A DNA stretch of 64,000 nt. Source: Salinicoccus sp. Bachu38. Its GTDB lineage: Bacteria; Bacillota; Bacilli; Staphylococcales; Salinicoccaceae. Shown in pieces: positions 55,228 to 59,270 of the stretch. The first letter of the stretch is position 1. The number at the start of each line of letters is the position of its first letter. The notes beneath the pieces were generated by a model. It was not told the origin of the DNA. It did no database searches and saw only the letters and a program-made list of their open reading frames with translations. The stretch lies in contig NZ_CP138333.2 of the NCBI RefSeq assembly GCF_038561955.2, positions 868,001 through 932,000 of the forward strand. Reading direction: 5' to 3'. Position numbers and translations under genes: made by a program.

Positions 55228-56043
55228 ATGGAAATATACGAGTTTGGACAACGTTTGATAAGGGAGGCTGGAGATTTCGTCCGGCTGCGCATGAAAAAGG
55301 ATTTCCGTATAGATGCAAAATTGAATCCGAATGATCTTGTGACGGACGTGGACCGCGAGACTGAAACATATATATACGACCGTATACTGGAAAAATACCC
55401 TGATCACCATATCATCGGTGAGGAAGGGCATGGCACGGATATCGAAGATACCGAAGGGGTTCTCTGGATCGTGGATCCGATTGACGGGACATTGAATTTT
55501 GTGCATCAGCTTCAGAACTTTGCAGTTTCAATCGGCGTCTATATAGATGGCAGACCGCATTGCGGAATGATACTCGATGTAATGAATGACCATCTCTATC
55601 ACGCGAAGGCAGGGGAGGGGGCATTCAAGGATGACATCCGGCTGGCACCGCTCGAGGATACCGACCTTGCCCATTCCCTCGTCAGCCTGAATTCAAATTG
55701 GGTGATCAAGGATGAAATCGGACCGGCCTTCACAAAAGTAGTCAAAGAAGCACGCAGTACACGCTCATACGGATCTGCGGCACTCGATTTGGCATTCACC
55801 GCAACAGGGATAGTAAGTGCGACACTCTTCTATCGCCTGCACCCATGGGACTATGCTGCGGGAATGATCATCATTTCGGAAGTCGGGGGCAGAACGACGA
55901 ATCTGCTGGGTGAAGAGATCGATATATTGAAAAAGGATAGCATATTGGCAGGAAACCGGGCGCTGCATGGAGAGCTTGTGGAATATTTCGATTCCGATGA
56001 ATCGTTCATTGCAGCTCACAGGCGCGCGCATGGTGAAAAATAA
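55228..56043 (+). CDS. Inositol monophosphatase family protein (SuhB/YktC-like)
   Basis: A 271-residue Mg-dependent phosphatase. IIGEEGHG, WIVDPIDGTLNFVHQ and HPWDYAAGMIIISEVGG are the three metal/substrate motifs of the IMPase family; relatives also hydrolyse fructose bisphosphate or PAP. The ATG at 55,228 follows GGGGTGG. Its last 28 bases overlap the 3' end of the minus-strand gene at 56,016. Confidence 0.9.
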   Translation: MEIYEFGQRLIREAGDFVRLRMKKDFRIDAKLNPNDLVTDVDRETETYIYDRILEKYPDHHIIGEEGHGTDIEDTEGVLWIVDPIDGTLNFVHQLQNFAVSIGVYIDGRPHCGMILDVMNDHLYHAKAGEGAFKDDIRLAPLEDTDLAHSLVSLNSNWVIKDEIGPAFTKVVKEARSTRSYGSAALDLAFTATGIVSATLFYRLHPWDYAAGMIIISEVGGRTTNLLGEEIDILKKDSILAGNRALHGELVEYFDSDESFIAAHRRAHGEK

Positions 56044-56357
56044 TAGATTCTCTCTTTATGGTCCAGCTTCTTGAAGTTGGACCGTATTATTTTTTGCAGA
56101 GTATACTCCGAAACGGAAATCCGCAGATGGTCGATGATGTCCCGGCGCTTGTAGTTCTCTCCCGGGAACAGTCGGTCGAACTGTGTGAAATAGTCCCTGG
56201 CGATGATCTGGACCGCTTCGACCTGCCCACAGACATCGCATTTTCCTATACTGCCTCCGATGGTCTGCCAACCGAAGGCATGGCACCGTCTGCATTTTAT
56301 GCCCCGGCGGAAGTTTCCGGCATTGATGGAAAGGGGCACCCGCACCTTGAGCATCAT
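56016..56357 (-). CDS. Zinc-ribbon half of a split NERD-like gene
   Basis: A 113-codon frame whose first ATG (56,357) overlaps the stop of the upstream gene by four bases (ATGA). Cys22, Cys25, Cys40 and Cys43 form a CRRC...CDVC zinc ribbon, followed by a helical segment with YTLQKIIRSNFKKLDHK that may bind nucleic acid. No ribosome site is visible for independent translation. The frame equals the -1 frame of the upstream gene after an A-AAA-AAG heptamer, so it is probably the C-terminal part of one 298-residue protein, made by frameshifting or broken by a homopolymer indel. Confidence 0.65.
   Translation of the reverse strand: MMLKVRVPLSINAGNFRRGIKCRRCHAFGWQTIGGSIGKCDVCGQVEAVQIIARDYFTQFDRLFPGENYKRRDIIDHLRISVSEYTLQKIIRSNFKKLDHKERIYYFSPCARL
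56060..56095 (+). terminator. Terminator of the inositol monophosphatase gene
   Basis: A stem GGTCCAGCTTC/GAAGTTGGACC (one G-T wobble) is followed by a T-rich run. It lies within the antisense 3' end of the minus-strand zinc-ribbon gene. Confidence 0.7.
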
Positions 56358-56911
56358 GTCGAGGCGGGGCGATGGTTCTTTTTTCTGATTACGGCGGAAT
56401 GTTCGATGGCTTTCAGATAGTAGGGCAGATTACGTTCTTCAAGAAAAAGGTCCGACCGTTTCCCCTTCAACTGGAACCCATCGTTCATCATGACATACTT
56501 TAATATGATGGGACGCTGATATGTGCCGGCATCAATCAGCTGGTCACGGAACATTTCAAATATCTGCCTGCTGCGGTTAAGATCGAGGACTGCTTCGTGG
56601 TTGCTGCTGCACAGGATGTTGAACGGATTGATGTAATGCTCGCCTTCAAGATCATGAAGTATGAACAGATAGTAGCAGTAGTCGGTCACGATCAGGACGT
56701 TCACTATTTCGGCCTTCCTGTCGACGAGCACCTCGGCGTGCCAGTGGATACGCATGTTTGTCGTCTTTATTTTCATCAGGTGGTGTTCGAACTGCGCTTC
56801 CAGTTTCTCCGTCCTCTGCATCGCTTCATATTCGTTTGTTTCATCGTCCGAAAACGGCAGTCTGTTATATAGGAATTCGTAGACTTTCAATCGGTCGGGC
56901 TTCTCTCTCAT
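56354..56911 (-). CDS. NERD-like protein, N-terminal half of a split gene
   Basis: A 185-residue product. After a charged N-terminal helix, the segment IHWHAEVLVDRKAEIVNVLIVTDYCYYLFILHDLEGEHYI resembles a degenerate NERD (nuclease-related) domain, in which strands lead to a 'D..vv....y.l..k....G' pattern. No complete catalytic set is visible. The ATG at 56,911 follows AAGGAG at seven bases. The frame ends seven codons after AGA-AAA-AAG, where a -1 shift would continue into the zinc-ribbon frame at 56,016. Function and nuclease activity are uncertain. Confidence 0.65.
   Translation of the reverse strand: MREKPDRLKVYEFLYNRLPFSDDETNEYEAMQRTEKLEAQFEHHLMKIKTTNMRIHWHAEVLVDRKAEIVNVLIVTDYCYYLFILHDLEGEHYINPFNILCSSNHEAVLDLNRSRQIFEMFRDQLIDAGTYQRPIILKYVMMNDGFQLKGKRSDLFLEERNLPYYLKAIEHSAVIRKKNHRPAST
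56378..56384 (-). other. Candidate -1 frameshift site A-AAA-AAG
   Basis: Read on the minus strand, codons AGA-AAA-AAG give the heptamer in the register needed for tandem -1 slippage. The -1 frame then reads GAA-CCA-TCG onward into the ORF at 56,016. Eight bases downstream a GC-rich stem CCCGC/GCGGG with further pairing can be drawn. Loss of one A from an original A7 would give the same picture. Confidence 0.6.
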
Positions 56912-57077: not shown

Positions 57078-57269
57078 CTATAGCCAGCCGTTTTCCCGAT
57101 ATTTCTTCTTCAGGGTGAAGCCTGTGCCAAATATCGCAATGAATACGAGGACGGAGACGACTGCCATAAGCGGCATCGCTTCAGCGATGAAGACGGAAAA
57201 TGCGATCATCATCAGGACTGCAAGCACAGCAAGTACACCAAATATGGCTTTAGATCTTTTTGGTTCCAT
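57078..57269 (-). CDS. YlaF-like (DUF5325) small membrane protein
   Basis: A 63-residue protein with two membrane helices (about 9-29 and 32-50) and a basic C-terminus KKKYRENGWL. Position beside typA and the helix pattern match YlaF/DUF5325 of Bacillus. Function unknown. The ATG follows AAAGGATCG. The upstream -10 at 57,304-57,309 gives it its own promoter. Confidence 0.75.
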   Translation of the reverse strand: MEPKRSKAIFGVLAVLAVLMMIAFSVFIAEAMPLMAVVSVLVFIAIFGTGFTLKKKYRENGWL

Positions 57270-57382: not shown

Positions 57383-57428
57383 AAACAGGTTGTGAAATAG
57401 CGATTCTAAAAACGAAGGGAAAGTCTTG

Positions 57429-59270
57429 ATGAATTTAAGAAATGATATCCGTAATATCGCAATCATTGCGCACGTTGACCACGGAAAAACGACATTGGTG
57501 GATGAACTGCTCAAGCAATCTGGCATGTTCAGGGAAAATGAGCATGTCGCAGAACGTGCAATGGATTCAAACGATATTGAACGTGAACGCGGGATTACGA
57601 TCCTCGCAAAAAATACAGCACTTGCCTATAAAGATACAAGAATCAATATCCTGGATACACCAGGACATGCCGACTTCGGTGGTGAAGTCGAGCGTATCAT
57701 GAAAATGGTGGATGGTGTCATCCTCGTCGTGGATGCCTATGAAGGGACGATGCCGCAGACGCGCTTCGTACTGAAAAAGGCACTGGAACAGGACTTGAAA
57801 CCACTCGTTGTCGTCAATAAGATTGACAAGGACACTGCCCGTCCGGAATCGGTCATCGACGAAGTGCTGGAGCTCTTCATCGAGCTTGATGCCAATGATG
57901 AACAGCTGGAATTCCCGGTTGCCTATGCTTCTGCCATCAATGGTACAGCGAGCCTCGAGATGGATCAGCAGGATGAGAACATGGAGTCGATCTTCGAAAT
58001 GATCATCGAACATGTCCCGGCACCTGTTGACAACAGCAGTGAGCCACTCCAGTTCCAGGTAGCACTCCTCGACTACAATGACTATGTCGGAAGAATCGGC
58101 ATCGGCCGTGTCTTCAGGGGTGAGATGAAAGTCGGCGATCAGGTTTCACTGATCAAGATCGACGGTACAGTCAAGAATTTCAGGGTAACCAAAATGTTCG
58201 GTTACTTCGGTCTGAACCGCGTCGACATCGACTATGCCAAAGCGGGCGACCTCATCGCACTGAGCGGCATGGAGGACATCAACGTGGGAGAGACGGTCAC
58301 GCCGGTGGATACGCCGGAAGCCCTGCCGGTCCTCCACATCGATGAACCGACGCTGCAGATGACCTTCTCTGTGAACAATTCACCGTTTGCGGGCAAGGAA
58401 GGTAAATATGTCACTGCACGCAAGATTGAAGAGAGACTCGAACAGCAGCTTGAAACGGACGTTTCGTTGAAAGTGGATCCGACGGATCAGCCGGATGCAT
58501 GGAAAGTCTCAGGCAGGGGCGAACTCCACCTGTCCATACTGATCGAAAACCTGAGACGTGAAGGATTTGAGCTGCAGGTGTCCAAGCCTGAGGTCATCAT
58601 CAAGGAAGTCGATGGTGTGAAGTGCGAGCCTTTCGAACGTGTCCAGATTGATGTGCCTGAAGAGAATACCGGCAGCGTCATTGAGTCCCTTGGGCAGCGC
58701 AAAGGTGAAATGGTCGACATGTCCAATACGGGCAATGGCCAGACACGCATCATCTTCCATGTACCTGCACGCGGCCTGATCGGTTACCGTACCGAGTTCA
58801 TGTCCATGACAAGGGGATATGGTATACTGAACCATACATTCGAGGACTACAGGCCTGTCATCCGGGAGCGCATCGGCGGCAGACGCAATGGTGTGCTCGT
58901 CTCCATCGACAAGGGGGCGGCATCGACCTATTCGATCCTGCAGCTTGAGGGGCGTGGCACGAACTTCATGGAACCGGGGACAGAAGTCTACGAAGGCATG
59001 ATCGTCGGAGAAAACTCCAGGGACAATGACCTTACAGTCAACATCACCAAGGTGAAGGCGGCAAACAACATCCGTTCTGCAACGAAGGAACAGACCACTA
59101 CGATGAAAAAACCGCGCTCTTTGACACTTGAAGAGGCGCTTGAATTCATCAATGAGGATGAGCTGGTGGAAGTGACGCCTGAAACCGTCCGTCTCAGAAA
59201 GAAGATCCTCGGCAAGAGCGAAAGAGAAAAATCACAGAAGAAAGAAAAGTTTAAACTTGAAGCGGAGTGA
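57429..59270 (+). CDS. typA: Ribosome-associated GTPase TypA/BipA
   Basis: A 613-residue translational GTPase involved in ribosome assembly and stress/cold adaptation. [17 protein letters not shown] is the P loop, ERERGITI and [13 protein letters not shown] are G2/G3, and [10 protein letters not shown] is G4. The EF-G-like domains and the TypA-specific C-terminal domain follow. ATG at 57,429 after AAGGGAAAG. Family length 605-615, so complete. Confidence 0.95.

Follow-up and report, generated by a model that had tools for sequence, protein, structure and literature searches.

Within a 64,000-nucleotide stretch of a one-contig 2.6 Mb Salinicoccus genome (bases 868001-932000; hereafter, the window), a reading frame for a nuclease-like domain is overlapped near its end by a second frame on the same strand, which encodes a zinc ribbon. 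The question raised by this locus is whether the two frames constitute a single gene whose halves are joined by recoding, two genes coupled by translational restart, or a gene broken by the loss of one base. Programmed frameshifting is established for only a few bacterial chromosomal genes outside mobile elements, and automatic annotation may well break this one in two or misassign it. The arrangement of the sequence, its conservation among relatives, purifying selection on the tail and the tRNA set make it highly probable that programmed -1 ribosomal frameshifting decodes the two frames as a single chromosomal gene.

Organization of the locus

The gene and its surroundings comprise the following features, in coordinates of the window:

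56354..56911 (stop included), minus strand: zero-frame ORF, encoding a short product of 185 residues with a putative, diverged NERD-like pseudo-nuclease domain
56378..56384, minus strand: slippery heptamer A_AAA_AAG in the -1 register
56354..56356, minus strand: zero-frame TGA stop, overlapping an ATGATG of the -1 frame
56016..56378 (stop included), minus strand: -1-frame extension of 120 residues, a Cys4 zinc ribbon (its four Cys invariant in 30 of 30 family orthologues) and a winged-helix-like domain
56337..56371, minus strand: possible stimulatory stem-loop, 6-nt spacer
57078..57269, minus strand: small conserved upstream neighbor, presumably DUF5325
57426..59270, plus strand: conserved neighbor that we take to be typA
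55228..56043, plus strand: conserved convergent neighbor, presumably a suhB-like inositol monophosphatase gene, overlapping the end of the -1 ORF

The zero-frame ORF extends from its ATG at 56911 through 185 codons to the TGA, and the codons around the shift site are ATC AGA AAA AAG AAC CAT CGC CCC GCC TCG ACA TGA, with seven sense codons between the heptamer and the stop. Past the heptamer, the -1 frame reads EPSPRLDMMLK and onward to a stop at 56018-56016, such that the long form would consist of 178 + 120 = 298 residues. The original prediction, made from the letters of the window, had claimed a heptamer in this register seven codons before the stop and a -1 frame coinciding with that of the downstream zinc-ribbon ORF to yield one 298-residue product; both claims are borne out. 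In-frame A_AAA_AAG occurs only here when all ORFs of the window with 150 residues or more, spurious ones included, are considered (27,020 codons).

According to the proposed mechanism, ribosomes would first translate the N-terminal pseudo-nuclease domain and, at A_AAA_AAG, the P- and A-site tRNA-Lys(UUU) would re-pair one base back, on AAA AAA. Some of the ribosomes would then continue in the -1 frame and add the zinc-ribbon/winged-helix-like tail to give the 298-residue form, and those remaining would terminate at the nearby TGA to release the 185-residue form. Both slippage in cells and its efficiency are inferred.

The gene order typA, small gene, recoded gene, convergent suhB and yktB (typA, suhB and yktB being presumptive names) was kept in all 39 genomes tested, 30 from the family and nine from its sister family. 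In the window, the last 28 bases of the -1 ORF (56016-56043) are shared with the suhB-like gene, which meets it tail to tail on the opposite strand.

Conservation of the shift site and of both reading frames

The N-terminal part is present in 30 of 33 family genomes, and the nearest relative, S. luteus, is at 96% over this part. Both parts and the heptamer occur in all 12 Salinicoccus genomes, where the zero frame stops close by and the -1 frame stays open. The same holds for heptamer, nearby stop and -1-frame tail across four genera, in 24 of 24 orthologues (12 Salinicoccus, nine Jeotgalicoccus, one Aliicoccus and two Phocicoccus), the stop lying five to nine sense codons past the heptamer in every case. 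The first base of the heptamer is always A, within a codon that is AGA, CGA, AAA or TCA, and the G of its AAG is invariant. The A run is A6 in 22 of the 24, A8 in two and A7 in none. The original prediction had held that the split would be programmed if many relatives kept A6 and both frames, and this is the pattern that the orthologues display.

In five Jeotgalicoccus loci (L065-L069), the N-terminal part starts with GTG rather than ATG. The three family genomes without the N-terminal part are those of a single genus, g5 (L114, L115, L117); these genomes are small (1.4-1.6 Mb), and suhB directly follows the small gene in them.

Loss of one A, whether by sequencing error or in a pseudogene, had been offered as the alternative in the original prediction. 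Homopolymers are error-prone, and four orthologues from the sister family are continuous genes that have no run, as this explanation would have it. However, the same split recurs in 24 of 24 genomes, and dN/dS is low in both the N-terminal part and the tail (0.08-0.25 for the tail in all 15 of the hand-chosen pairs). Because of this conservation and these ratios, error or decay was rejected, and its probability is next to nil.

The tail is under purifying selection in its own frame, and the shift site shows signals of selection as well. Among 132 scored codon columns (median synonymous identity 0.49), full synonymous identity is confined to the AAG column; the two rows from Phocicoccus, displaced by one column at this point, also read AAA AAG. 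The dual-coding overlap is less variable than either flank in three clades: variable sites number 3/27 in the overlap versus 21/60 upstream and 21/60 downstream in Salinicoccus clade I (n = 6), 6/27 versus 21/60 and 20/60 in Salinicoccus clade II (n = 4), and 6/27 versus 16/60 and 29/60 in Jeotgalicoccus (six of the nine). Furthermore, four of the 24 orthologues have a -1 frame that does not open before the first base of the heptamer, so an earlier shift cannot give the fusion product there.

These comparisons also bear on whether the locus is a pair of coupled genes, in which translation stops at TGA and restarts at the overlapping ATGATG so that the zinc ribbon would be made only as a protein of its own. 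In five of 12 Salinicoccus, the window's genome included, the stop has an ATG overlapping it or next to it, as ATGATG or TTGATG, and possible start codons precede the first CxxC of the shifted frame in 18 of 30 family orthologues, again including the window's gene. However, the other 12 have no ATG, GTG or TTG in that interval, the heptamer is kept even where a restart codon is absent, and the tail is fused to its N-terminal part in paralogues and in six sister-family genomes. Independent initiation of the tail was rejected as a general explanation on account of the 12 orthologues without a start codon, and coupled genes without fusion are very unlikely at this locus. Given the position of the ATG in the five Salinicoccus, restart could also make a separate tail as an extra product, and the ATGATG of the window's gene could serve in this way beside frameshifting.

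Decoding machinery and stimulatory elements

The tRNA complement is of the kind that slippage on A_AAA_AAG would employ. In the window's own genome, ARAGORN typed 60 genes in the stretches around 60 tRNA hits; both tRNA-Lys genes among them have the anticodon UUU, and both tRNA-Pro genes have UGG. In E. coli, several A or U heptamers shift less readily than A_AAA_AAG, and only one lysine tRNA is found in about half of known bacteria (PMC5009743).

The original prediction had included a hand-drawn stem downstream of the heptamer, and this stem can form (56371-56337). Downstream RNA structure is usual, although not universal, at -1 heptamer sites. The role of the stem as a stimulator is only partly supported. 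In the window, the advantage over dinucleotide shuffles is moderate at most (z -1.68 for a 40-nt stretch, -0.16 for a 70-nt stretch). A stem lies 6 nt past the heptamer in seven genomes, namely six clade I Salinicoccus and G010, in which 94% of cells are paired (5/500 shuffles as high) and two pairs exhibit double changes (40/500 shuffles as high). It is absent in other clades. Values of z at or below -1.6 were found for the 40-nt stretch in eight of 30 genomes, and at or below -2 for the 70-nt stretch in seven of 30, including both Phocicoccus (-3.9 and -5.6); no value under -1.8 was obtained for five of the Salinicoccus or for any of the six Lacicoccus. Stems are thus clade-specific, with none common to the 30 family genomes. 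Upstream of the heptamer, a Shine-Dalgarno-like stimulator was sought and found neither in the window nor, apart from short matches in two of 30 genomes, in the relatives.

A +1 arrangement in Lacicoccus

The six Lacicoccus orthologues all lack the heptamer, and their tail lies in the +1 rather than the -1 frame. A CCC codon is invariant in the six and is followed by A or G (CCC AGT or CCC GGC), and a TGA comes one sense codon later in five of them. In the 60 nt before CCC, 17 of 25 variable sites fall at zero-frame third positions, while after CCC 19 of 41 fall at +1 third positions, although only two of seven do so within the pair G023/G024. Full codon identity is found in 39 of 140 columns of these six related genomes, the CCC column being one of the 39, so the CCC column alone is a weak argument and the switch of frame is the better one.

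This layout is best read as +1 frameshifting at CCC, in which peptidyl-tRNA-Pro(UGG) would leave CCC and re-pair with the CCA or CCG that overlaps it. Of 56 tRNA hits in Lacicoccus G027, 55 were typed, and they include two tRNA-Pro, both UGG, as well as two tRNA-Lys, both UUU. In E. coli, the pairing of tRNA-Pro(UGG) with CCC is weak, and this tRNA can move into +1 and +2 (PMC4519876). Slippage by -2 on the A-rich sequence that precedes CCC is disfavored because zero-frame constraint runs right up to CCC. In a tree of the N-terminal part, for which the program issued a long-branch warning and six of the 15 sister-family rows were used, the +1 group forms a single clade (100/99), and its position among -1 users has modest support (83/76, 84/79).

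Long A runs in the sister family

Both domains are also kept in all 15 genomes of sister-family genera g10 and g11 (G049-G063). Four of these have a continuous gene without an A run at the junction, and the other 11 have A9-A16 at the same place, of which six need a -1 shift, three need +1 and two are in frame. A variable frame beside a retained run is as expected if slippage, rather than the genomic frame, sets the outcome, and the long runs suggest slippage by polymerase or ribosome; assembly error in such runs may account for some of the lengths and frames. At loci L083, L084, L126 and L127, runs of 10-16 bases lie at coding-region junctions with a downstream frame that differs between genomes, and slippage or a phase-variable locus is possible there. 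Between the small gene and suhB, no counterpart was found in the sampled genomes of g12 (three), g14 (eight) and f2 (one).

The sister family brings in transcriptional slippage, whereby RNA polymerase would insert an extra base in the A run, so that the frame change would already be present in the mRNA. Runs of 9-16 at the same junction, with all three frames represented, speak for such an origin, and slippage is known at runs of nine (PMC5009743). The run is, however, A6 in the window and in nearly all orthologues of the -1 genera, with an invariant G next to it, and transcriptional slippage is usually implicated at runs above seven (PMC3711429). A long run of A or T (about 8-9 or more) is a feature of 11 of the 15 sister-family genomes and not of the window's gene, for which polymerase slippage is very improbable.

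It is somewhat more likely than not that the chemistry of recoding changes within one syntenic gene while selection keeps its two-product output. Under this reading, four genera would shift -1 at A_AAA_AAG, Lacicoccus would shift +1 at CCC_A/G, and the sister family would rely on slippage at its long A runs. The gene is kept over at least four genera; a fifth has the direction of the shift changed, and the sister family has the A-run form. The -1 genera, the +1 genus and the A-run family provide a ready comparative series, which may serve to ask why the ratio of recoded isoforms is kept and how one recoding signal replaces another.

Comparison with known recoded genes

A close precedent is E. 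coli dnaX (tau/gamma), likewise a chromosomal gene with A_AAA_AAG in the same register, a sole tRNA-Lys(UUU), and two products sharing an N-terminal part (PMC3711429, PMC5009743). In contrast to dnaX, the shift proposed here would add a domain instead of truncating the product, the protein is unrelated, no upstream Shine-Dalgarno-like element accompanies the heptamer in the window, and the stem is clade-specific. Recoded prokaryotic gene clusters of the GeneTack survey, such as magnesium chelatase and dnaX with long A runs, are similar in being non-mobile genes with A-rich conserved shift sites and, in some cases, fused homologues (PMC3711429). The main text of that survey makes no mention of NERD, nuclease-related, zinc or Macrococcus (PMC3711429).

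For the +1 arrangement, a parallel exists in the coat and tail genes of Listeria phage PSA, which shift +1 at the proline codon CCC, while the coat genes of A118 and A500 use -1, an exchange of -1 and +1 between related genes (PMC5009743). Those are phage structural genes, whereas the present case is a syntenic chromosomal gene with another site context (CCC AGT or CCC GGC). The -1 signal is well known; the literature searched contained no report of the gene, and the change of recoding type among relatives is unexpected.

Identity of the two domains

The N-terminal part looks like a diverged, PD-(D/E)XK-like NERD domain that lacks the catalytic residues: of the catalytic D...ExK, the 30 members have D in none, E in none and K in one. 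The description as NERD-like in the original prediction has no counterpart among Pfam hits, as NERD (PF08378) does not appear for any of the 30 N-terminal parts, which stay below its gathering score; what favors it is collinearity with true NERD paralogues and the predicted fold. Profile comparison with these paralogues was collinear over 160 columns at E 0.015 and a probability of 3%, values that leave the relationship unproven by sequence alone. Pfam hits to the 30 N-terminal parts were scattered, at E 0.0075 or worse, the only one for the window's own N-terminal part being DUF123 at E 0.027, under its cut-off. The tail had no Pfam hit and, in NCBIfam, only L40e at E 0.046, again under the cut-off. 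PADLOC returned nothing for either part.

As many as three NERD paralogues that end in a zinc-ribbon tail were found in some Salinicoccus genomes (L014-L022), each encoded in a single frame with a D...ExK that looks intact. The tail of the recoded gene matches theirs at a profile E of 1.5e-11. The recoded gene shares the tail and an apparently collinear N-terminal part with NERD (PF08378) paralogues of its own genus, but differs from them in its split frame and its lost D...ExK, and it misses the Pfam threshold. The long form would presumably bind nucleic acid through the tail, and the short form, made in a set ratio to it, may be a partner or an antagonist. In PADLOC, one of the NERD paralogues weakly matched two defense models, MkoA (2.8e-6) and PglW (2.6e-4).
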